64,000 nt of DNA from Ligustrum vulgare. Its lineage: Eukaryota > Streptophyta > Magnoliopsida > Lamiales > Oleaceae. Each line of letters starts with the position of its first letter. Position 1 is the first letter of the stretch. Shown piece by piece: positions 8,359 to 57,840 of the stretch. Location of the stretch: positions 26,722,862 through 26,786,861 of the forward strand of contig OY743170.1 in assembly GCA_963555705.1 (NCBI GenBank), read 5' to 3'. The notes beneath the pieces are model-generated. The model saw only the letters and a program-made list of their open reading frames with translations, was not told where the DNA came from and ran no database searches. Made by a program: the position numbers and the translations under genes.

Positions 8359-11300
8359 TTAGAGACGTGTGATTTCTAGATAGCTAGTCGGATTTAACCA
8401 CAATAAGAAACTATCCAGACCACTGAAGTTCCCTGCTGACCTTGCCCATAATCCTGTAAAAAACATGATGTTATCCCATAAATCTTCTATTGATCGTTCA
8501 ATGTTATCAAAAATTCTCCGATTCCTCTCTATCCATATGGCCCATGCTGTTCCCATGACAATCAAATTCCATAACTCCTTTCTCTGCTTTTCTTTCTCCC
8601 CAAAGTGCCATTTAATAAGGATCAGATCAGCCCATTTTCGTAGGAGAACTCCTGCTTCGCCAAACATATACAGGATTTTATCCCAAATCTTTCTAACAAA
8701 CTCACAATGAATTAAGATGTGATCAATACTTTCATTCGTCTTTCTGCACATAATACAAAAAGACGGTGATAAGCACCAGTCAGGCCTTTTCAATTGTAAC
8801 AAGTCACAGGTGTTTACCTTCCCTAAAGAAACCAACCAAGCAAAAACTTTGATTTTTGATGGCACCGCGCTCTTCCAAATGAAATTCATTTGCGGGAAGC
8901 AATATTCGTACGGGGGTTTGAGGATTATATTAAGAAAGGATTTGCAGGAGAAATTACCCGATTGGTGGCCTATCCAAATTCGTTTGTCCAAACTGGCCTG
9001 GTCTAGGTTTGCGGTCTCGAGAAGGTTTAGGAGAGAGATAAAGTCATCAAAGTCTCTATCATTAAAATTCCTGTAAAATTGTAAAGACCAAGTCGGGTTG
9101 GAAAGAGGCTGAAACGAGACAACATCAGAAATGAGGGATTCTTTATTTTTGGATAATCGGAATAGGCGGGGGAAGGAATCTTTGAGTGTTTCGTGGCACA
9201 GCCACTTATCGATCCAAAACCTTATCTTATCTCCCTTACCTACTACCAATTTGGTATTTTGCACAAATATATTCCAAGCTCTTGTGATAGATCTCCACGG
9301 TGCTCGAAAAGTGGAATTAACTTCAATATTTGCATCCCAGCCGTTTGAATGGAGACCATACCGACTACGTATAATGTTATGCCAAAGTGAATCCGATTCA
9401 ATGGAAAATCGCCATAGCCACTTCCCTAACAGGGCCAAATTCTTGTGGTGAAGGTTACCAATTCCCAAACCCCCATACATTTTTGGTTTCACAACTACCT
9501 CCCAGCTGACTAAGTGATCCTTAGAACCCTCACCTCTTCCTTCCCACAAAAAGTCCCTCATCATTTTTTCAATCACCTTCACAACTTTTAAAGGCATGTG
9601 GAATATTGACATAAAATATGTGGGAATACTACCTAGTACCGCTTGCAGTAGCACCAGCCTTCCACCTCTTGATAAACAACTCTTGTGCCATCCTCCTAAT
9701 CTTCTTGCCACCTTCTCCATCACCGGGTTCCAAAACGAGAAAGCCCTTGGATTGCCTCCCATTGGTAGGCCTAGGTAACATAATGGCCAAACCCCTTTAA
9801 CACAACCCAACTTGTTGGCAATGTCTTCAATTCGTTCCTCCTTTATGTTAATACCTACCACCGTACTTTTTGCCATGTTTATCTTTAGCCCTGTTGATTT
9901 TGAGAATATCTCCAGAATGCCCATGAGGATATCGAGATCATCTTCCTTATTTTCCAAGAAAAATATACTATCATCTGCAAACTGTAGATGAGATACCCTT
10001 GCATTGTCTCTCCCAATCTTGAAACCTTCCAGTTTCTCCATTTCGCACGCCTTGTTTACTAGTCTGCTCAACACATCACCTACCAGGATGAATAGAAACG
10101 GCGATAATGGATCTCCCTGTCTTAATCCTCTAGATGCACCAAATTTTCCCCTTGGCTTACCATTAATCATCACCGAGAAATTTGCCGACGACAAACAGCC
10201 CCAAATCCACTTTCTCCATCTTTCTCCGAATCCCTTCTTTTGAAGCACGAAATCTAAAAATTCCCAACTAACATGATCATACGCCTTTTCAAAATCAATC
10301 TTGAACACCACTCCTTCTCTCTTTTTCATCCTATATTCCTCTACAATTTCATTTGCAATTAACACCAAATCTAAAATTCGCCGTCCTTTAACAAAGGCGC
10401 ATTGGGCTCCATCAATAGTTTGTGGCATAATTTCCTTAAGTCTCAGTGATAGCACTTTTGCCACTATTTTATATAGAGAAGTCACCAAACTTATCGGCCT
10501 AAAATCCTTGATGGCAACCGAACTCAATTTTTTGGGAATTAGGCATATGATAGTCTCATTCACCCTTGCATTCACAATTCCATCGTCATAAAATTCTGAG
10601 AACACTTTCATCAAATCCTCTTTGATAACATCCCAATTCTCTTGTAGCGCCGCCATAGAAAAACCATCTGAACCCGGCGCTTTATCTCCATCGCAATCAA
10701 ATAGAGCTTTTCTCACCTCTTGTTCTGTGAACTGTTCCTCTAACTTTGACTTGTAATAATCAATACTTGCCCATTCAATTCCTTCAAAGCCAAAGTTAGC
10801 CACTCCATTTCTTTTAAAGAGATTTTGAAAGAAATCAATAATCTCTTTCTCAATTTCCTCCTCAGTATGCAACATCACTCCATTCCTATTTTCCAGTTTG
10901 TTGATCAAATTATTTGTCTTCCTACCACTCGCAATCCTGTGAAACATCTTAGTGTTATGGTCCCATTCCTTTACTCCTTTGATCTTTGTTTTTTGATTCC
11001 ATGATGTTTCTTCTCTAATGATTAGTTCCTGAAGATTTCTTTTTAGATTCCTTCTTTCATTTCTTTCCTCTATACTTATGCCTTGCTCCCCTTCCATTTT
11101 GTCAATATCCTCTATTCTGTTCATTGTTGCTATCTTCTCCATCCTCACATCACCAAACTCTTCTTTATTCCACCTTTTCAAATGATCCTTAATAGTTTCC
11201 ATTTTTCCCATAAACTTATAGCCCGCCCATCCTTCATGATCACACTCTTCCCACCATTCCTTCCACTTCTTTTTGAAATCCTTATGCCTAAGCCACATAT

Positions 11301-12036
11301 TTTCAAAACGAAAAGGAGTAGGACCCCATTTGAATCTACTTGTGTCAAGCACAATTGGGCAATGATCTGAGGTGACTCGAACAAGGGCTTCCTGTCTAGT
11401 TATCTCAAACATACCTTCCCATCCTTCTGTAAAGAGGAATCTATCCAATCTTGAACATGCCAATCTTTCTCTCATATTTGTCCATGTAAATTCCGAATTT
11501 GAGAGCGTTAAATCCTTCAACCCTGCCTCTCTTATAAAACAGTCAAATTTTCTCATGCTTCTAGTGTAATTTGAACCATTCAATTTTTATGACGGGTAAC
11601 GTACAACATTGAAATCACCACCCATGCACCATCTAGTTCCACACAAACCATATAATCCCGCCAGCTCTTCCCAAAACCCAGATCTTTCTTTTGGATTACA
11701 AGGTCCATATATCCCAGAGAACCACCAACATTCTCCTCCCATAATTGATTCTAGCTGTACTGACACCGAAAAATTTCCCAAAACTACTTCTTTCCCCCTC
11801 AAGACTCTTGAGTCCCACATTGTTAAAATACCCCCAGATTTACCTACAGACAGTAGAAAAACCCACTCCTTAAACCTAGAGCCCCAAATACTTCCAATAA
11901 ACTTGTTATCAAAGACTGACCTCTTTGTTTCCTGTATTGTTACAACATCCGGTCTTTCCTTACATAACATCTCCTTTATCAATTTTCTTTTTTTCTTACC
12001 ACCCAATCCTCTAACATTCCAACTAATGATCCTCAT
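8359..12036 (-). pseudogene. L1 ORF2: endonuclease, reverse transcriptase, zf-RVT; one in-frame stop
   Basis: A single frame of 1,226 codons is interrupted only by a TAA at 11589-11587. The APE-type endonuclease has ISWNVRGLG at the start, QETKR, GGDFNVV and SDHCPIVL. The reverse transcriptase has KIDFEKAYDHVSWEFL, GLRQGDPLSPFLFIL, the catalytic LQFADDSIFF and LGLPMGG. The C-terminal zf-RVT domain has WKSAVPSKIKVFAWLV and CIMCRK...HILIHC. There is no RNase H domain. The stop lies between GGDFNVVRYPS and KLNGSNYTRS, inside the endonuclease. The start codon ATG overlaps the ORF1 stop (ATGA), as in bicistronic LINEs. Confidence 0.9.
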
Positions 12037-17855: not shown

Positions 17856-19491
17856 TCAATATGGACCAAATCGAAAGACTTTAAAATATGGAGGCTTAAA
17901 GGATTGCTTTTAAACATTTGTGACTAAAATGTAAATCTTTAAAAAACTTGGGCTTAAAATCAAATAAAGTAAATCAGCAGTGACCGAACTAAAATGGGTT
18001 TGATACTTAACGGTTAAAATAATAACTTTTGAAATTTAGGGCTGAGATTGATGATTTGAAACCAAAAGGGACTGAATTGAATAACTTTTAAAACTTCGGG
18101 ACCAAAGTTGCAATTTCTGGAAGTTAAATTATTAAAATCAAAATATTTACTCTCTCATTCACGATCTGAAAAAATCAGACCGAGAGAGAGAAAGGCGAGA
18201 TAGCGAGGGCGATCGGGGGAGAAAATCCGGTCTTCCAGCCGGCGTAATGCCGGCGCAACGTCGCCGGCAGGTAGCGGTAGACGGCGGAAAGGGATGGGGG
18301 TACAAAAAGGCTGGGTTTTGGGGCTGATTTCGTGCGAGACCGAAGCTTAAATCAGGATTTGGAGTTCGGTATTAGCTGCGAGATCCGGTGATGGTTGAGG
18401 TATGTGACTGGGCTGCGAGGTGTTGATTAAACCGAGGTAGACGAGGCTGGGTTTGTGGGTTTCCCGGCGGTTGCTCGGCCAAAAACACGGCGGTCACTGG
18501 AGGTGATGCCGCCAACGAGGAGTTGCGATGACGGTGGGTGTAGGGCGGCAAAGAAGGAGAGCAGGGTGGGTATTTGGGTGCGAAAATTGAAAGTGGGCTG
18601 TGACTTGGGTACTCGTGATTTGGATGCTTTCCAGTGAAGATTCCGGCTGTGAGGTAAGGTGGTTCAAGGTAAGTGTTGGGTCAATTTATTTCTTGGTTGC
18701 TTTGGGTTTTGATTGGGTATTGAAGTTTGGGCTTTTCTTGAGTTTGGTTGGAGGTGGCGATTTCGACGCGGTTGGGGCAATGGCGGTCTTTGAGGTGATT
18801 GGCGGTGGTGAGGGCAGTGGTGCTGGAGGCCGATCTCGGTTGTGGAGTTTTGAGGTTGTGGTCGGTAGGTGGGCATTCGACAGATATGGAGGTTGATGTG
18901 GTTGGGGTTCGCCGGTTGTAGGGGTGCTACAGGTGGTGGCGGCTGTTTGGCTGTAGTTGGGTGGGTGGTGCTGAGTACGTCAACTTGCTTGAAGATTGTG
19001 GAAGGATTGGTGATGAAGGTGGAATTTCAACAGAGTAGCAGCCATGGTGGAAGAGGAGAGGTTCTTACCCCAGAATTTCTTTGGCTGCGTGAGCTAAGCT
19101 GTGAGGGAGAGAATGGAGTGATCTGAACAGTAATGTGTTAGGGCACAAATTTCTAGGTTGGTAAGTGGGCCAGCTTGGGCTAAAGAATTTATAATTGGAC
19201 TGAAAATATTTAAAATTGGATTACATAATTTTTGACCCAAAATAACCAAATATTGGACTTAATAAATTGGACTCAAAAATTATTATATATTTGGATTTAA
19301 AACTGATAAGGAATTTGATACTTTAAAATATTCGAGATTGGACTCGATTTGAGTATATTTTTAAATTTATTTTACAATGGCTAGACGAACACGCTTCACA
19401 GTTAAAAGTAAAAATTCGGGGTTAAATCTTAGCGACACGTTTTTTCGAGAAACACGATTTTTACATTATTTAAAATTTCTCGGTCGCTACA
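16949..19491 (-). mobile_element. Solo LTR, family A, with perfect 5-bp target duplication
   Basis: The insertion starts TGTAACGCCCCGAG and ends CGGTCGCTACA, giving TG...CA termini. It is flanked by TTCCG at 16944-16948 and TTCCG at 19492-19496. Related complete elements (e.g. 48052-56253) have their polypurine tract beyond the GTCGCTACA end, so the LTR is oriented on the minus strand. It interrupts the zf-RVT coding region of LINE no. 2. At 2,543 bp it is a long LTR. It contains a CA/TA microsatellite, GC-rich DNA at 18180-19120 with no true gene, and the conserved words CTAGACGAACACG and GAGTCTACCTT shared with 46305-47804 and 26189-39558. Confidence 0.9.
17776..17853. repeat. (CA)n-(TA)n microsatellite
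   Basis: A CA run with one CT interruption passes directly into more than 20 TA dinucleotides inside the solo LTR. Confidence 0.95.
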
Positions 19492-46304: not shown

Positions 46305-47804
46305 ATGCATGTAAGTTATAGCGCATATAACATCATAACTTCGTCTCATCTCAATTCATATTAACATATGAATAAATCACACAATTGCATTCCACATGCA
46401 CATCATAACTAAAATCAATTATTAAGAATGAGTCTACCTCAAATTCTAATGAGTTCAAGTCGAGCAGTGAAACTTCAAATCTCTAACTTTCCATTCGTGT
46501 CATCTAGCCAAAGAAAATAAATCTTAAATTAGAAATTCGGAACAAAATTGAGCATTTTCAAAAAATAGAATAAAAGATTTGGAACTAATTTGACAATTTG
46601 ACATAATTAAATTTGAAAGGTTTGGGACTTAATTAAAATTTTCGGAAATAGAAGGGGTTGACTCAAAATGTTTTAAAACTGCTCGTGTTAAAAATAAAAA
46701 CTTTAAAAACTTAGGGCTGAAGATTATTAAATTGAAGGGCTTAATTTTATAATTTGAAAGTTGGGGGCTAAGTAGCAAACTTTAAAAAAAAAAAAAAAAC
46801 AAACAAAAAAAAATAGTCTCTCTCTGCTATTCGAACAGTAGAGAGGCAGTCAGGAGGGGCAAAGCCCCCTCCTCCTTCGTCCCATCGCCGACAGTGCAAT
46901 CGGCAATATTTTCGTTGCTGCATGGCAGCAACCTGGCTGCTGGTGGTTGGTGGAGAGGATGAACTATTTTGGTACGATTTGGTGTAAGGATTGAGGTAAA
47001 CTGAGGCATGGATTCGATATTGGGGATTATGATTTTCGGCCAGAATTTCCGGTGACGAAGGTGAGTATTGTGTTCCTTGGTTTGGGTTTTTTTATTTTTG
47101 GATGGGAAATGAAGTTTTGGGTTTCTTGAATTTGGTTGGTGGCTTGCGGTGATGTTGGTGATGGTGAGGTCTCAGCGATGGGGATTTGGTTTTTGCAGTA
47201 GCTCGTGTTTGGAGTGGCCAGTGGTTTGGGTGAAGGACAACCAATGACTGAGGGTATAATGTCTATGAATGGTGGCTTGGGTTTGGCTTATGCAGTCGTT
47301 GAAGAAACTGGGGAGCTAATAGTTGAGACAAAGGAAATGCTTACCCAAATTTTGCAGGTGCTCGTGAGGGAAGAAAATGTGGGATTAGAGCTGAGTTATG
47401 TCAAATTCTTGTAGGTGAAGGATTTTGAAGAGATTGTAACTGTTGATCAAATTAATCTTTGACAATGAATGGAGCAATAATATTTTGAACGGTTTGGAAT
47501 CTGAAAGAAATGCAATCGGATGGGGGTTACTTTCTGTATATTGAATGAAATGGAAAAGCAATAATAGTAGAATCAGGAATTTTAAATTTTGGATTAAAAT
47601 AATTATTTGGGTTCAAAATGAAATAATAATTTTTGGACAAATTTAAAATCACAAATCGGACATAAAGATTTAAACGAATTTAAATTTCTTGCTTAAAATT
47701 TTAAAACAATTTATATGGTTAGACGAACACGTTTTCATTAAAAATTGGGTGAAGTCGTAGCGACAAGTTTTAATAAATTTAATAATAAATTCTCGGTCGC
47801 TACA
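46305..47804 (-). mobile_element. Gypsy 3' LTR fragment (element G, family A relative)
   Basis: It ends CTCGGTCGCTACA at 47804 and contains GTTAGACGAACACG near 47717, GAGTCTACCTCAAATT and GTCATCTAGCC, as in family A. The left part is truncated near 46305, where it meets an unrelated 'ggggtggacaaaaa' stretch. Beyond the right end the plus-strand sequence continues into element G's pol end (minus), so this is its 3' LTR. The GC-richer centre (46830-47420) contains the chance frame 47205-47414; no gene is supported. Confidence 0.75.
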
Positions 47805-48051
47805 ACCTTACTCTCTGAAAATAATTTCATCCTCGAAATTAAACTTACTTGGTCTACTATGTCTGGGTACTTGGCTAGAATTTCTTCTTCCTTTTCCCAG
47901 GTAGCCTCATCACTACCATGTTTACACTACTAGACTTTGACTAAGGGAATCTCTTTGTATCGTAAGACGTGAGCCTTTCTGTCAATTATTGCCACAGGTG
48001 CTTCCTCATATGATAGATTCTTTTGAATCGAGATAGACTGAAAGTTCACCA
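47805..48051 (-). pseudogene. Element G pol C-terminus (right of the young insertion in reading order)
   Basis: Minus-strand codons continue from 56254 across the insertion: NFQSISIQKNLSYEEAPVAI, RKAHVLRYKEIPLVKV, two stops, then DEATWEKEEEILAKYPDI. This is the conserved chromovirus (Tekay/Del-like) Pol tail 'YEE-P--I-D---VLR---V-LVKV-W------ATWE-E'. The two TAGs replace residues normally Q and W. The segment ends at the CGAGGATGAAAT motif and a degenerate polypurine tract before the LTR at 47804. Confidence 0.85.
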
Positions 48052-48567
48052 TGTGACGACCCGAATTCTCGACCATTCGAGTGCCACTAAAAGTGACTCA
48101 TATCATATTATCGAGACTTAAATAGTAATGTAAAATTATTCAAAAGAATAATTAGAATCCCATAATTTTATTTGTGAATAAAAATAGAACATAATTTTCT
48201 TACATAAAGTTCAACATAATTATCTCATCAATCTTAACCACTTTTGCCACTTCCATGTTGACCGCCTCGAACCTTCAATTATCTGAAAATGGTAAATATC
48301 GTGGAGTGAGATTTATAAAATCCCAGTAAGTATACCAAGCATAAATTTTCTTTTGAAATCATATGGATCATTTTCATCATAACATAGGATATGATCGAAA
48401 TACTCATAAACATAGGGAGACACAAGAATTTTACCGAACTTAAATGGCAAGAATTCTTATGTATAGCGCTACTAAACTCCGGTCCCCTTAGCATAATCAT
48501 AAACATATCATATGGAACCCATAACAATCTTGTGAGATTGATTTCATAGCAATGATCCAAACATTTT

Positions 48568-49570
48568 CATAAAAACATAAGATATACTTACTTGTCATAA
48601 AAACATACTTACTTTTCATAAAAACATAAGGTGTATTTACCTTTCATAAAAACATACTTACTTTTCATAAAAACATAAGATATACTTACTTGTCATAAAA
48701 ATATACTTACTTTTCATAAAAACATAAGGTGTATTTACCTTTCATAAAAACATACTTACTTTTCATAAAAACATAAGATATACTTACTTGTCATAAAAAC
48801 ATACTTACTTTTCATAAAAACATAAGGTGTATTTACCTTTCATAAAAACATACTTACTTTTCATAAAAATATAAGGTATACTTACTTGTCATAAAAACAT
48901 ACTTACTTTTCATAAAAACATAAGGTGTATTTACCTTTCATAAAAACATACTTACTTTTCATAAAAACATAAGATATACTTACTTGTCATAAAAACATAC
49001 TTACTTTTCATAAAAACATAAGGTGTATTTACCTTTCATAAAAACATACTTACTTTTCATAAAAACATAAGATATACTTACATTTCATAACAACATACTT
49101 AATTTTCATAAAAACATAAGATATACTTACATTTCATAACAACATACTTAATTTTCATAAAAACATAAGATATACTTACATTTCATAACAACATACTTAA
49201 TTTTCATAAAAACATAAGATATACTTACATTTCATAACAACATACTTAATTTTCATAAAAACATAAGATATACTTACATTTCATAACAACATACTTAATT
49301 TTCATAAAAACATAAGATATACTTACATTTCATAACAACATACTTAATTTTCATAAAAACATAAGATATACTTACATTTCATAACAACATACTTAATTTT
49401 CATAAAAACATAAGATATACTTACATTTCATAACAACATACTTAATTTTCATAAAAACATAAGATATACTTACATTTCATAACAACATACTTAATTTTCA
49501 TAAAAACATAAGATATACTTACATTTCATAACAACATACTTAATTTTCATAAAAACATAAGATATACTTA
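48568..49570. repeat. 49-bp tandem array in the 3' LTR, about 20 units
   Basis: The left half alternates two 49-bp variants (ATAAGATATACTTACTTGT and ATAAGGTGTATTTACCTTT), giving a 98-bp higher-order repeat. The right half is ten copies of a third variant (ATAAGATATACTTACATTT then CATAACAACATACTTAATTT). The units are AT-rich with no spacer DNA. Confidence 0.95.
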
Positions 49571-49799
49571 CCTTTTAAAAGATTAAAATGAAGTGTAGTA
49601 GTAAATGGACCAAAACTTTCTTGACCACCTTGAATTTCTCTTACTTGTGGATTTTGTCAAGAGATTGGAAATAAGTGTATATGTGTAGAGTTGTGTGTAA
49701 AAGAGATGGGTTTAAATAGATGTATAAAGTTGGCATATTGTAAACATAATCATTCAATTCTATTAATTTTAACACATCCTTTTCTTAAAGTAAAGCACC

Positions 49800-50145
49800 A
49801 TTCATATACTTTTCCATATTTATACAAATAATATGCTCTTCATGATTATATATAATGGAGTCTATCAATCATTCATATATTTTTTCCATATTTATACAAA
49901 TATTATGCTCTTCATGATTATATATAATGGAGTATATAAATCATTCATATACTTTTCCATTTTTTATACAAATATTATGCTCTTCATGATTATATATAAT
50001 GGAGTATATAAATCATTCATATACTTTTCCATATTTATACAAATATTATGCTCTTCATGATTATATATAATGGAGTATATAAATCATTCATATACTTTTC
50101 CATTTTTATACAAATATTATGCTCTTCATGATTACATATAATGGA
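49800..50145. repeat. 70-75-bp tandem repeat, five units, in the 3' LTR
   Basis: The core ATGCTCTTCATGATTATATA recurs at 49832, 49907, 49977, 50048 and 50119, followed by TAATGGAGTATATAAATCAT. The same set occurs in the 5' LTR at about 55615-55960. It creates short repetitive open frames that are not genes. Confidence 0.95.
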
Positions 50146-50439
50146 ACCTCTCATGCTTGCATATATTTTCTTAATTTAAATAATAAAAGTAATTTTTGTA
50201 TAAATAAATATTGGGATAACATTGAATTAAGTATTTGGACTTAATATACTTTAAATCAAGAAAATGGAGATATTTTTAGAAATTCGGAATTTAATTTAAA
50301 ATCGAACGATCTCGATTATTTCTTGACTTGGCTATACGAATACGTCGTGGCGTTAACTTAATAAAAATGGGTGAAATAGTAGCGACACGATTTTCTATTA
50401 AAATAATTATTAATCGCGTAAAAACTCTTGGTCGCTACA

Positions 50440-50452
50440 AACTTACCCCCTT
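50440..50452 (-). promoter_or_regulatory. Polypurine tract of the young element
   Basis: The minus strand reads AAGGGGGTAAGT directly before the LTR start TGTAGCGACC, preceded by the AATTTCGAGGACGAAAT box that ends gypsy internal regions. Confidence 0.85.
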
Positions 50453-51219
50453 AAAATAATTTCGTCCTCGAAATTAATCTTACTTGATCTTATGATTTCT
50501 GAACACTTAATCAGAATCTCTTCTTCTTCTTCTTATGTAGCATCATCGCTACTATATTTAACCCAACCATATTTAACCCACTGGACTTTGACTAAATGCA
50601 TCAATTTGTTTTCTTAAGACATGGACTTTTCTATCAATAATAAACATATGTCTACTCATAAATTCTTCTGAATCAAAATGAAAATTCCCAATCGTATGTG
50701 ATATTTCATCATATCTTGTAGTATTCATGTAACTTGTCATTTATCATCGTATCATGTGACCTCAAATATTCGTATTAATATCTCTAAAATTTCAATAAAT
50801 CTTTACTAACATATCATACCATAATAATTTGTCATTTCATCTTATCACCAAATATCCCAAAATAATTAAAACGATTACCTGAATATTCTCTATGTAATAT
50901 ACCCAAACATGTTATTCACATATCAACATAATCATCAGTTTATCTTTCCAATATTTGTAACCCAAAATTTCTGCAAAATTCAATAAACAAATATCTCCCA
51001 AATAATTAAAATTCTTAACTCAAATATCATAACATTTCCCGTAAGGTATTCCTTTCACTTGCACAAACTTATTAATCCTGATTCAATACAGTCCTTATTT
51101 CACTTTCACGTATCCCCGTATTATTTCTATACCTTGATTATTATATCAAAATATCAGTACCCAAAATCCAAGAAAATATTCCATATCTCAAATCCCGTCA
51201 TCATCAAATCTTCCTTTTA
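50453..51219. other. Interior of the young element, left part: noncoding, AT-rich
   Basis: There is a short remnant of a gypsy pol end next to the polypurine tract (50455-50600, with CTTCTTCTTCTT and 'gactttgact' as in other gypsy tails). It is followed by AT-rich DNA with no reading frame or recognisable domain. Confidence 0.5.
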
Positions 51220-51342
51220 TCAAGAAAGTAAACGGCGCATAAACTCTTGTTCCCTCTTTTCCATTATTCTATTCCGCGCTTTCTTGCTGGAATCAATATC
51301 ACGCGGATTCCCTCCGATCCTTAATGCTTTTAAATAGTTCAT
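51220..51342 (-). CDS. Small open reading frame, 40 codons, in element sense orientation
   Basis: It runs from ATG (51342) to TGA (51220). The peptide starts MNYLKALRIGGNPRDIDSSK and ends REQEFMRRLLS. It is strongly charged and more protein-like than its surroundings, but matches nothing I know. It could be the end of a captured gene, a scrap of gag, or chance. It lies 86 bp from the LOG fragment on the opposite strand. Confidence 0.3.
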   Translation of the reverse strand: MNYLKALRIGGNPRDIDSSKKARNRIMEKREQEFMRRLLS

Positions 51343-51427
51343 GCTGGGAAGAGGTTAGATCCATCAAAAACATGGATATCATTCTTACAAACATTCGCAA
51401 GTATTATTCCAGTCTTCCAATGAATGA

Positions 51428-51814
51428 TCTGAGGAAAATTTATCGAATAAGACTCGAAAGATTGAGGTTGCTGATGGCTTTATAGCCCTGCCCGGAGGTT
51501 TTGGTACCTTAGAAGAAATCTTTAACATTACCTCGTGGGCTCAACTAGGTCTCCATACTAAGCCTATTGGGCTTCTGAATGTTAACAATTTCTTTGATGG
51601 CTTGTTAACCTTTCTTGATTATGCTGTGGAACAGGGATTCATCTCTCCATTTTCCAGAAGGCTTCTTATTTCTGCTCCTACTATTGATGAACTACTGGAT
51701 AAGCTGCAGTCATATATCTCAATACAAGATCCAGCAGGGGTTAAGATAGATTGGTCGCAAGGAAGGGGAATCAAGCGAAAATGGAGTCCGGTTAATGTAA
51801 ACTTAACTTTATGA
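51428..51814 (+). pseudogene. LOG-family (cytokinin riboside 5'-monophosphate phosphoribohydrolase-like) C-terminal fragment
   Basis: An uninterrupted 128-codon plus-strand frame reads KIEVADGFIALPGGFGTLEE, then WAQLGLHTKPIGLLNVNNFF, FLDYAVEQGFISPFSRRLL, ISAPTIDELLDKLQ and a stop. The PGGxGTxxE box is the diagnostic LOG/'lysine decarboxylase' motif binding the ribose-phosphate. The order W-Q-G-H-KP-GLLN-FLD-AVE-FI follows the family through its end. The N-terminal half, with the other nucleotide-binding residues, is missing. A stop (51425) lies just upstream in frame and there is no start near the motif, so it cannot make a full enzyme. No intron interrupts the piece, although plant LOG genes usually have several in this half (family knowledge), which suggests capture from spliced RNA. 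It lies antisense to the host retrotransposon. Confidence 0.85.
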
Positions 51815-51825
51815 ATCTTAGAATA

Positions 51826-52036
51826 GGTGGGGGTAGAGTACGGAGTATTCTTACTCTCGAGACACCCCTCTAATTTCCTAGGATTTTCCTTAATGTTTAA
51901 ATCTTGTGTGTACCTCAAATGTTCCAGGTGGTAGATTACGGAGTATTCTTACTCTCGAAACACACCTTTTTGAAGGTTTCTTTATTTCCTCAAAAGGTCA
52001 GAGGTGGTAGGATACGGCTACTCCGGAAACACATCT
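51826..52036 (+). repeat. Three copies of a hairpin-forming motif after the LOG stop codon
   Basis: Copies at 51826-51869, 51927-51966 and 52003-52036 share GGTGGTAG, ATTACGG or GTACGG, AGTATTCTTACTCTCG and GAAACACACC. The GAGTA-TTCT-TACTC core can fold, and GGTG...CACC flanks it. The third copy is shortened. They may be part of the captured 3' UTR or of the element. Confidence 0.7.
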
Positions 52037-52039
52037 CTC

Positions 52040-53753
52040 AATTTGAGGAATTTCCCATGTTGCTTTCTTTTGCTTTTGCGTGTTTTCATGTATTTCCTTT
52101 CTAGGGTGACTCTTGTGTGTTCTCCTTATGAGAAAATAATAATATCTCTGTTATCATCTACTAAATCTCGTTTGTGATGTAAATGAACTTGTATGTCTAA
52201 CTTCAATTCTCTTAGTGATTGCATACCATACTATGCTCTTAACTCCAAACGATAAAATTCTAGGCAGAGTTTTCCTTTGAAATTTGGACTTATCCAAATC
52301 GTAAGCATACTTCATAACTCACAATAATAACTAATTGTACATTTGATCACAATTTCATCAAACTTCAATATCATCATAAATATTCCAGAAAATCAATTCA
52401 TAATTCCTCAACATAGAAATTTCAAATCATAATTTCTAATATCACCATATCAAGTCCTTATTTCTCAATAATTAAGAGCCTAAACTTTAAATCTCCAACT
52501 TCATAATTCTTCTCATAAAAATCTCAATAAAATCATATCACTTATAATCTCAACATCTCATCATAACTTCATAAAACTGACTTTCTATTTCTCATTAAAT
52601 CTAAATGATAGATAATCTGAACATATTTCTAATCATTTCTGTTGACTTCTTATACTTAGTGCCATGTCTAAAATCAATTATGCAAAGTCCATTTAAGGTT
52701 CATCATTTCTAAACTCGAGGACAACAATTATTTTGAAAATCATTCGTAAATCATGTTTTTTTTTTTTTCAAAATTGAAACTTGAATAGTGGTACCAATAA
52801 TCATCCACAGTTTTTCCTTGCTTTTAAGCAAAGGTAGTGATAAAGGGATAAATTATTGAACCGAAAATTGAAACTTGAAGAGGAAGTACTAATAACCATC
52901 CACAGTTTTTCCCTTGTTTTTACACAAAGGTAGTGATAAAGGGATAAACTATTGTACAATTCATTATCAATTTTGTTTGTTTAATATATTATTCCATATA
53001 TTTTGGGCCAAAGTTACAACCCAACTTAATTTCTAATTGAGTCAATCTTACTAAGCTCAATATGAACCAAAATTCATATCAATATCCTCTATGTCTCATG
53101 ATTCTACATTAAAATGAATAAATTAAAATTTAGGCTTCTATCAATTCATATCATACTCAACATGTATATTTCACTTAAAGATTCATAACATATGAATATT
53201 TCATACTTAACATGTCTTAATAAAATCGTAAATGACTTGCAAAGCATATAACATACCTGGTTCGAGGAGTCAATACGTGGAGAGTGACATAGTAGAGTGA
53301 TGAGTTAAAATATTTTAAAAAAAAATTATTATTAATCATTTCGCATCTTTACATAAGATTGGGCCTAATTAACCCAAATAAAAATTTATCGTCAAATCTT
53401 ATTTTCCTTTAGTCCCCGAACTTCTAGAAATTTATCAAAGACATCAATATAAACATCATATCACTAACTAATTATATTCCATAAAATTTTCAGGACATTA
53501 CAAACTCCCTTGCTTAAAATGAATTTTGTCCTTGAAATTCGCACATCAAATTTCATCATACTTTTCAAAATCATAACCATACTTGACATGTGAAAATTCA
53601 AATTTTTTTTTTTTAAATGAATAGTGATTTCGTTCACTGTTCATCATGAATAGCACGTCGTTTTACTGTTCACGTGAATAGTTTTTTTTTTTTTTTTTTT
53701 TTTTTAAGAAATAAAATTTCAAAAATCTACAGAATCGTTTTTAAAACTCTTTT
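52040..53753. other. Interior of the young element, right part: noncoding
   Basis: AT-rich sequence with a near-duplicate pair at 52775-52960 (AATTGAAACTTGAA, CATCCACAGTTTTTCC, AAAGGTAGTGATAAAGGGATAAA twice) and T-runs near 53680. No protein-coding signal was seen. Confidence 0.6.
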
Positions 53754-53764
53754 CTCTGATACCA
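53754..53764 (-). promoter_or_regulatory. Primer binding site (initiator tRNA-Met) of the young element
   Basis: The minus strand reads TGGTATCAGAG two bases after the 5' LTR end, complementary to the 3' end of plant initiator tRNA-Met. Confidence 0.9.
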
Positions 53765-54282
53765 ACTGTGACGACCCGAATTCTCGACCATTCGAGTGCC
53801 ACTAAAAGTGACTCATATCATATTATCGAGACTTAAATAGTAATGTAAAATTATTCAAAAGAATAATTAGAATCCCATAATTTTATTTGTGAATAAAAAT
53901 AGAACATAATTTTCTTACATAAAGTTCAACATAATTATCTCATCAATCTTAACCACTTTTGCCACTTCCATGTTGACCGCCTCGAACCTTCAATTATCTG
54001 AAAATGGTAAATATCGTGGAGTGAGATTTATAAAATCCCAGTAAGTATACCAAGCATAAATTTTCTTTTGAAATCATATGGATCATTTTCATCATAACAT
54101 AGGATATGATCGAAATACTCATAAACATAGGGAGACACAAGAATTTTACCGAACTTAAATGGCAAGAATTCTTATGTATAGCGCTACTAAACTCCGGTCC
54201 CCTTAGCATAATCATAAACATATCATATGGAACCCATAACAATCTTGTGAGATTGATTTCATAGCAATGATCCAAACATTTT

Positions 54283-55384
54283 CATAAAAACATAAGATAT
54301 ACTTACTTGTCATAAAAACATACTTACTTTTCATAAAAACATAAGGTGTATTTACCTTTCATAAAAACATACTTACTTTTCATAAAAACATAAGATATAC
54401 TTACTTGTCATAAAAATATACTTACTTTTCATAAAAACATAAGGTGTATTTACCTTTCATAAAAACATACTTACTTTTCATAAAAACATAAGATATACTT
54501 ACTTGTCATAAAAACATACTTACTTTTCATAAAAACATAAGGTGTATTTACCTTTCATAAAAACATACTTACTTTTCATAAAAATATAAGGTATACTTAC
54601 TTGTCATAAAAACATACTTACTTTTCATAAAAACATAAGGTGTATTTACCTTTCATAAAAACATACTTACTTTTCATAAAAACATAAGATATACTTACTT
54701 GTCATAAAAACATACTTACTTTTCATAAAAACATAAGGTGTATTTACCTTTCATAAAAACATACTTACTTTTCATAAAAACATAAGATATACTTACATTT
54801 CATAACAACATACTTAATTTTCATAAAAACATAAGATATACTTACATTTCATAACAACATACTTAATTTTCATAAAAACATAAGATATACTTACATTTCA
54901 TAACAACATACTTAATTTTCATAAAAACATAAGATATACTTACATTTCATAACAACATACTTAATTTTCATAAAAACATAAGATATACTTACATTTCATA
55001 ACAACATACTTAATTTTCATAAAAACATAAGATATACTTACATTTCATAACAACATACTTAATTTTCATAAAAACATAAGATATACTTACATTTCATAAC
55101 AACATACTTAATTTTCATAAAAACATAAGATATACTTACATTTCATAACAACATACTTAATTTTCATAAAAACATAAGATATACTTACATTTCATAACAA
55201 CATACTTAATTTTCATAAAAACATAAGATATACTTACATTTCATAACAACATACTTAATTTTCATAAAAACATAAGATATACTTACATTTCATAACAACA
55301 TACTTAATTTTCATAAAAACATAAGATATACTTACATTTCATAACAACATACTTAATTTTCATAAAAACATAAGATATACTTAC
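54283..55384. repeat. 49-bp tandem array in the 5' LTR, about 22 units
   Basis: Same array as at 48568-49570, but with twelve rather than ten copies of the third variant. This accounts for 98 of the 99 bp by which this LTR is longer. Confidence 0.95.
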
Positions 55385-56253
55385 CTTTTAAAAGATTAAA
55401 ATGAAGTGTAGTAGTAAATGGACCAAAACTTTCTTGACCACCTTGAATTTCTCTTACTTGTGGATTTTGTCAAGAGATTGGAAATAAGTGTATATGTGTA
55501 GAGTTGTGTGTAAAAGAGATGGGTTTAAATAGATGTATAAAGTTGGCATATTGTAAACATAATCATTCAATTCTATTAATTTTAACACATCCTTTTCTTA
55601 AAGTAAAGCACCATTCATATACTTTTCCATATTTATACAAATAATATGCTCTTCATGATTATATATAATGGAGTCTATCAATCATTCATATATTTTTTCC
55701 ATATTTATACAAATATTATGCTCTTCATGATTATATATAATGGAGTATATAAATCATTCATATACTTTTTCATTTTTTATACAAATATTATGCTCTTCAT
55801 GATTATATATAATGGAGTATATAAATCATTCATATACTTTTCCATATTTATACAAATATTATGCTCTTCATGATTATATATAATGGAGTATATAAATCAT
55901 TCATATACTTTTCCATTTTTTATACAAATATTATGCTCTTCATGATTACATATAATGGAACCTCTCATGCTTGCATATATTTTCTTAATTTAAATAATAA
56001 AAGTAATTTTTGTATAAATAAATATTGGGATAACATTGAATTAAGTATTTGGACTTAATATACTTTAAATCAAGAAAATGGAGATATTTTTAGAAATTCG
56101 GAATTTAATTTAAAATCGAACGATCTCGATTATTTCTTGACTTGGCTATACGAATACGTCGTGGCGTTAACTTAATAAAAATGGGTGAAATAGTAGCGAC
56201 ACGATTTTCTATTAAAATAATTATTAATCGCGTAAAAACTCTTGGTCGCTACA

Positions 56254-56618
56254 CACCGTGTGGCTAGGGTCATGATCATACTTCCTTAATAGGAAAACGT
56301 GAAAAACATTATGTACCGTCGAAAGTTCAGGTGGTAGAGCCAAACGAGAAGCCACGTTTCCTACTTGTTCCAATATCTCAAACGGTCCAATATATCGGGA
56401 CCTTAATTTTCCTCTCTTACCAAAACAAAAAGTCCCCTTCATCGGAGCCACTTTCAAAAATACTTTCTCTCCAACTTGAAATTCCAAATCTTTCCTCCTC
56501 TTATCGGCATAACTCTTTTGTCTATCTTGAGCAGCTTTAATCCTTAGTCTGATCTTTTGAATAGCCACTACAGTCCTTTCAATTAATTCCGGACCTAATA
56601 TCTTCCTCTTCCTCTCAC
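56254..56618 (-). pseudogene. Element G pol: integrase C-terminal region upstream of the insertion
   Basis: The minus strand gives KILGPELIERTVVAIQKIRL, AAQDRQKSYADKRRKDLEF, VGEKVFLKVAPMKG, RYIGPFEILEQVG and VHNVFHVFLLRKYDHDPSH. These are the integrase C-terminal (GPY/F) domain of Tekay/Del-type gypsy. The reading continues at 48051 after the young element. At about 56618 it meets the LTR scrap of another element, so the upstream pol is lost. Confidence 0.9.
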
Positions 56619-56722
56619 CTAGACGAACACGTTTTTAAATAAATTGGTAAAGTCATAGCGACACATTTTTAAAAATAAATAATATTTATTTAAATAAGTT
56701 ACTAAAATTCACAGTCGCTACA
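56619..56722 (-). mobile_element. Gypsy LTR end fragment (element F)
   Basis: It contains CTAGACGAACACGTTTTTA and ends CAGTCGCTACA, then a polypurine tract (reverse complement AAGGGGGTAGGGT). Only the terminal 104 bp of the LTR survive. Confidence 0.8.
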
Positions 56723-57060
56723 ACCCTACCCCCTTAAAATAATTTCGTCCTCGAAATTTCAAACTTTCTTGATCTAAAATATCTGGGTACTTGGCCAGAA
56801 TTTTCTTCTTCCTTTTCTCAGGTAGCTTCATTACTATCGTGTATGCCCCATTTGACTTTGACTAAAGGAACTTTTTAGTTTCTAAGGACATAGACTTCTC
56901 TCTCTAGGGTCCACACATGTGCCACATCATAGGTCAAGTCTGGTCAGGTACTAAATGATTGAAAAATTTTCACATAGTTCGGGCTAAAAATAAGTCTTGT
57001 TCTAGATTCTTTCTAGTATCTCAAATAGACCAATAAATATGTTTCCAAAACTAAATAATC
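56723..57060 (-). pseudogene. Element F pol C-terminus
   Basis: The minus strand gives IFIGLFEILERI near 57035, then EREVYVLRN, a stop, VPLVKVKWG and SNEAT, and ends at CGAGGACGAAAT. It is the same Pol tail as element G, with stops and a frameshift. RT, RNase H and integrase core are absent between this and gag, a large internal deletion. Confidence 0.8.
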
Positions 57061-57114: not shown

Positions 57115-57840
57115 TTAAAACACATACAATAATGCTAGAGATAACATACCTGCGTTCCCATCAGAATCTAGATCGACGTCCTCGTGTGTCATGGCAAACA
57201 CTTTGGAATTCCCTTTTCTATTCTGATCTTCTTTCCTCTTCTGGTCGGAACCTTGAGCAGGTGTAGCACGATAATCCAGTGCAAAGTGGCCCGACTGGCC
57301 ACACTTGTAACAAACGCCTTTTCCCAAAAGGCATTCACCTTTATGCATCTTCTGGCACTTGGGACATGGTGGCATGTATTTCGTTACTTGACCTTTGGCT
57401 GGTCCTGTGTTTGGCCTCTTGTTGGCTGTCTGATTTTTGTTCTGGTTATGATTTGAACCATGCCATTTCCTTTTTCCCTGCTCATTTTCAAAACATTGTC
57501 CACCATGTTGCATGACGGCATACGCTATGGCTTGAGCTTTCTTCACTACCTCCCGATAAGTAGAGAGCTCATGGGAGCTAACAATCTGATGAATATCCAA
57601 GCGTAACCCCCACTAGAAGCGATGAGCTTTCTTCTCCTTAGTTTTGACTAGATGAGGAGCATAGCGGGACAACTCCTCGAACCTCCTCTCATTCTCTGTG
57701 ATCTCCAGCTCTCCCTGACAAAGGCGAAGGAATTCTATCTCCATAGCATCCCAAAGAGCTTGAGGAGAGAACCTGTCTCTGATCTCTTCTTGAAACTCAA
57801 CCCATGTTAAGGCCTCCTGTTGAGTTAGAGTCCTGGTTCA
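57115..57840 (-). pseudogene. Element F gag (retrotransposon gag domain plus zinc knuckle), broken
   Basis: Minus-strand reading from about 57830 gives ALTWVEFQEEIRDRFSPQAL, MEIEFLRLCQGELEITENER, FEELSRYAPHLVKTKEKKAH, a TAG, then GLRLDIHQIV and STYREVVKKAQAI. A basic linker and a zinc knuckle (CYKCGQSGHFALDY) follow. In the knuckle the last cysteine of CCHC is replaced by Tyr. The N-terminal end is cut near 57840. Confidence 0.9.

Follow-up and report, generated by a model that had tools for sequence, protein, structure and literature searches.

Introduction

LOG genes are hormone-activating genes, with cytokinins as the hormones concerned. LOG-family sequences have already been found within plant mobile DNA. 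A YgdH (LOG) domain is reported in Gypsy consensus sequences of Citrus sinensis and C. clementina and, with one filter off, in a Gypsy element of Populus trichocarpa (PMC9289625, citing Steinbauerova et al. 2011). Note that these consensus sequences were found by their reverse transcriptase domain and, hence, represent elements with pol. Capture of host genes by LTR elements is common, with 672 genes involved in rice and 1343 in sorghum; 85 and 812 captured genes, respectively, have unique small RNAs (PMC3726574). In maize elements, captured sequences are described as a store of siRNAs with the capacity to silence the genes that donated them (PMC13317346). Antisense extra ORFs in plant LTR retrotransposons are also well described (PMC7264820, PMC11963269). 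Together, these reports mean that an event of the type presented below is already published (PMC9289625, PMC7264820, PMC3726574, PMC13317346).

Here, we describe an LTR retrotransposon, within a 64-kb window (the whole stretch of DNA analysed), that carries a LOG-family fragment in antisense. Our preferred reading, to which we assign a probability of roughly three in four, is that this is a non-autonomous element of Ty3/gypsy descent that lost gag and almost all of pol and acquired the C-terminal half of LOG in reverse.

Results

A structurally complete LTR retrotransposon

The features of the element are collected in Table 1. Both direct LTRs have TG...CA ends. The two copies of the 5-bp target duplication have a single G/A difference, at a CpG of the right copy, and this fits CpG loss. 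The primer binding site, which we take to be of the initiator tRNA-Met type, and the polypurine tract are on the minus strand. Hence, the minus strand is the sense strand of the element, which makes the plus-strand LOG frame antisense. Chance or artefact, as the source of the element, was rejected, since the structural marks agree. The initial annotation had claimed two near-identical LTRs of ~2.4 kb, a tRNA-Met primer site, a polypurine tract, and a target duplication with one CpG-type change. We recovered all four.

Table 1. Coordinates of the element and its parts within the window.
Feature	Position	Strand	Details
Target site duplication, left copy	48047-48051	unstranded	CACCA
Whole LTR retrotransposon	48052-56253	minus	complete
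3' LTR	48052-50439	minus	2388 bp
49-bp tandem array, 3' LTR	48563-49575		20.7 copies
72-bp tandem array, 3' LTR	49799-50145		4.9 copies; near upstream LTR end
Polypurine tract	50440-50452	minus	AAGGGGGTAAGTT; flush with 3' LTR
Degraded pol 3' end (chromovirus), remnant of the chromodomain region	50440-50640	minus	
Compositional island, probable acquired segment	51276-52132	plus	~0.86 kb
LOG-domain open frame	51428-51811	plus	128 codons; stop 51812-51814
Island remainder downstream of LOG stop	51815-52132	plus	
Primer binding site	53754-53764	minus	TGGTATCAGAG; two bases beyond minus-strand 5' LTR end
5' LTR	53767-56253	minus	2487 bp
49-bp tandem array, 5' LTR	54278-55388		22.7 copies
Matching 72-bp tandem array, 5' LTR	55612-55959		near upstream LTR end
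Target site duplication, right copy	56254-56258	unstranded	CACCG

Each LTR contains two types of tandem array. In the 3' LTR, which was the one scanned, TATAAA[AT] and TATATAT motifs occur every ~71-72 bases on the sense strand of the element. These recurring TATA-like motifs give the impression of an LTR promoter present in tandem copies.

Insertion into an older chromovirus

Pfam identifies the SH3_Tf2-1 region of pol in the right flank, encoded on the minus strand. When the flanks are joined, with one target copy, the same reading frame runs into a chromodomain-like stretch, itself interrupted by two stop codons side by side. Hence, insertion was precise, in the same orientation, and inside an older, stop-bearing element. 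What the element struck is the pol gene of an older chromovirus, with the empty site in frame.

Other traces of older elements are nearby. The region 56620-56904 is 77% identical to 47720-47949 over the first ~250 bases and resembles an LTR/polypurine/pol-end junction of the same lineage. It lies between a zinc-knuckle frame (57115-57600) and the pol end struck by the insertion. This neighbourhood probably consists of older nested or rearranged elements. Elsewhere in the window, a 1074-codon open frame on the minus strand (8359-11583) reads, by eye, as a LINE reverse transcriptase.

No gag or pol match in the interior

All six frames of the interior, with X at stops, were compared with Pfam at E up to 0.1. 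Five frames matched no family, gag and pol included, and the sixth, a plus frame, matched PF03641 only. By this six-frame search the element has no gag or pol coding capacity and is non-autonomous, as initially claimed. Beside the 3' LTR is a relic of a pol end. Its identity is 70.5% to one older element, at 47807-47989, and 71.8% to another, at 56727-56904. The relic had no Pfam match for a chromodomain; both here and at the empty site, we take this name from the motif. Ty3/gypsy chromovirus membership, as judged by pol order and chromodomain, is a tentative assignment, from this broken relic and its ~70% identity to the flanking 3' ends. From the relic and the missing gag and pol, we infer a deletion derivative of a chromovirus lineage.

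There was no second copy of the element within the window by blastn (E 1e-3), so that something confined to this locus, instead of capture by the element, would also fit; ~110 bp at one LTR end weakly match 19378-19491 (70.9%). Among viral contigs, the 28-base LTR/PPT junction found no relative, and a pattern from the LOG frame matched four stretches, none of which was confirmed.

The antisense frame encodes half of a LOG domain

Judged by its sequence, the open frame corresponds to the C-terminal portion of a LOG domain of the plant type. It matches positions 50-131 of the 131 in profile PF03641 (96.5 bits, E 1.8e-27). Using phmmer, 15 solved sequences were matched, the best being Arabidopsis At2g37210 (query 9-113 aligned to residues 104-208 of 215). 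Chance was rejected as the source of this homology, on the strength of the PF03641 and phmmer matches. Note that the homology begins after the start of the frame at 51428, namely at 51452 (phmmer), 51461 (Pfam), or 51470 (tblastn). The PGGxGTxxE box is kept, in line with the original description of an open 128-codon antisense frame with a PGGFGTLEE box. Scores were 94.3 bits for TIGR00730 (positions 94-178 of 178), against a cut-off of 96.35, and 58.1 bits for the LOG equivalog NF058542, against a cut-off of 300. Both shortfalls, the first slight and the second large, weigh against our preferred reading; these cut-offs are set for whole proteins and the lower scores are as would be expected of a fragment.

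A full-length LOG domain was not found by Pfam, TIGR00730, or phmmer, since the N-terminal half is absent. Hence, the frame cannot make a complete LOG enzyme. The proposal that the element mobilises a cytokinin-gene fragment can fairly apply to no more than a C-terminal half-domain. No second LOG segment was detected within the window by tblastn, where the next matches had E above 0.3.

Rather than a one-off capture, the frame could be an antisense extra ORF of long standing, inherited by successive copies within an element lineage and perhaps selected. The YgdH domains of the Citrus and Populus Gypsy consensus sequences (PMC9289625) speak for this. So does the open frame. When pieces of three solved LOG-family proteins are compared, 38 columns are invariant, and the frame retains 28 of them, which also favours our preferred reading. 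The remaining 10 are changed, three of them at residues 9-12, ahead of the tblastn match; these changes count against our preferred reading. Conversely, several observations make a long-standing ORF unlikely. Only half of the domain is present. The PF03641 score is below the 117.8 and 110.9 bits reached by pieces of two LOG-family proteins from Arabidopsis; these pieces cover 2 and 4 more profile positions. Furthermore, a frame as long arose in 21 of 1000 first-order random sequences of island composition. We thus rejected frame openness as a sign of selection; it is the homology, unlike the length of the frame, that exceeds chance.

The LOG fragment lies in a compositional island

Within the island G and C are balanced, whereas the flanks are strongly G-poor on the plus strand. 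A three-segment model gave a refined log-likelihood gain of 50.5 for the island. On the coarse grid the gain was 47.6, compared with a mean of 13.4 and a maximum of 25.6 in 100 shuffles of 30-base blocks. Island edges are good to tens of bases, with near-best left edges at 51210-51280. The compositional break suggests that the island is an acquired piece, which probably consists of the LOG tail, the ~320 bases following it, and ~180 bases upstream. This ~0.86-kb segment is of foreign composition, and the earlier claim of a LOG-derived antisense segment is supported. The ~180 bases upstream of the LOG homology match nothing. The part downstream of the stop is perhaps the 3' UTR of the parent LOG gene.

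Repeats and a further frame were also seen in this region. A 41-bp motif at 51829-51869 is repeated, with 90% identity, 98 bases away at 51927-51967, and a weaker third version is visible by eye near 52000. On the minus strand, in the sense direction of the element, 51223-51354 is a stop-ended frame of 44 codons, rich in charged residues. It could be another acquired gene end. A second captured gene was, as a candidate, rejected: this frame and five other interior frames had no Pfam match at E up to 10, in a search where HMMER filters drop most weak matches.

No intron interrupts the aligned LOG codons, which number 95 by tblastn and 105 by phmmer. In peanut, LOG genes contain between 3 and 7 exons, and most contain 7 (PMC13257298). 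Hence, with peanut genes as the comparison, a spliced RNA source is probable.

The fragment, or a retrocopy of LOG, might instead have been inserted independently by another transposon, by retrocopying machinery, or during break repair, either before or after the element's last jump. Its reverse orientation suits any event at the DNA level. Moreover, the two copies of a direct repeat of 8 bp, ACTCTTGT (51243 and 52109), fall within the uncertainty of both island edges. This repeat near both edges was one of ten offsets (one of 10 bp, two of 9 bp, and seven of 8 bp) listed when 51100-51469 and 51815-52399 were compared for direct repeats of 8-14 bp. However, chance alone would produce a repeat of this kind in roughly a third of cases. 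An 8-mer was shared by chance in 601 of 2000 random pairs of interior zones and in 175 of 500 simulated interiors. Being at chance level, ACTCTTGT neither supports nor excludes a target duplication of the island, and island duplications shorter than 8 bp are indistinguishable from chance. Filler DNA at breaks requires no duplication, which keeps break repair in play. A straight genomic copy is opposed by the lack of introns noted above. Taken together, we consider an independent insertion improbable.

The insertion is recent

Over the 2388 aligned bases, the LTRs differ by one C/T transition (49957/55770), a 1-bp indel in a T-run, and a 98-bp gap that corresponds to two units of the 49-bp array. 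The single substitution among these 2388 sites translates to an age of ~16-30 thousand years, with upper 95% bounds of ~90-167 thousand, when rates of 1.3e-8 and 7e-9 substitutions per site per year are applied. This LTR dating agrees with the initial description of a very young insertion. It is very unlikely that the near identity results from gene conversion or assembly error in an older element since, while long LTRs rich in tandem arrays are difficult to assemble and the target duplication copies are one base apart, the LTRs show a length difference of exactly two array units, along with two further small changes, and so have not simply been collapsed into one.

Discussion

The sequence of events that we favour is as follows. 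A chromovirus-descended element would have lost gag and nearly all of pol. It would then carry ~0.86 kb, including the C-terminal half of LOG, acquired in reverse orientation and most likely before its last jump. The LOG segment would derive from a host mRNA that had been spliced, with joining either in the course of reverse transcription or later, and the element would have moved using the proteins of a relative. Two observations fit less well. A template switch onto a packaged mRNA, during first-strand synthesis, should leave the insert in the same sense as the element, and the reverse orientation counts against this. Hence, the simplest template-switch model does not readily explain the orientation, and joining at the DNA level is possible. 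In addition, no poly(A) tract was visible at the island end, which counts against our preferred reading.

RNA driven by the LTR would carry the LOG segment as antisense and could give rise to small RNAs against the source gene. We hypothesise that the element may, in this way, silence the LOG gene from which its insert came. The locus is a clean and datable case, so that one could test directly which accessions carry the insertion and whether it affects the parent LOG gene. Alongside the Citrus and Populus cases, it also prompts one to ask whether capture of LOG is more frequent than that of other genes. A bolder proposal is that plant Gypsy-type elements capture LOG repeatedly, and each time independently, with antisense LOG here lowering or tuning its parent by small RNA. 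If true, the benefit to an element would be easier access to the germline, gained by disturbing or by providing cytokinin activation in meristem cells that are dividing. We regard this as a very long shot.

An element without gag and pol, bearing an antisense LOG fragment, was not among the matches listed in our literature search, a search covering few subscription papers. LARD-type non-autonomous elements also combine long LTRs with a non-coding interior; the LARDs first described have LTRs longer than the 2.4 kb seen here.

Placement of the extra frame has its own precedents. Grande, RIRE2, Retand, and PvRetro13 also have an antisense extra frame, situated between the side of the pol end and the half of the interior next to the 3' LTR (PMC7264820). 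Those frames recur across copies, and no clear protein similarity is described for them. Unlike these, the present frame is plainly from a host gene family. Bs1, and other transducing LTR elements, also contain part of a host gene (PMC13317346, PMC3726574). Their donor genes are different and the present insert is antisense. Finally, in the Citrus and Populus YgdH elements, as in ours, a LOG-family domain is lodged within a plant LTR retrotransposon of Gypsy type. However, those consensus sequences have pol, whereas the present element has neither gag nor pol and carries the C-terminal half-domain only.
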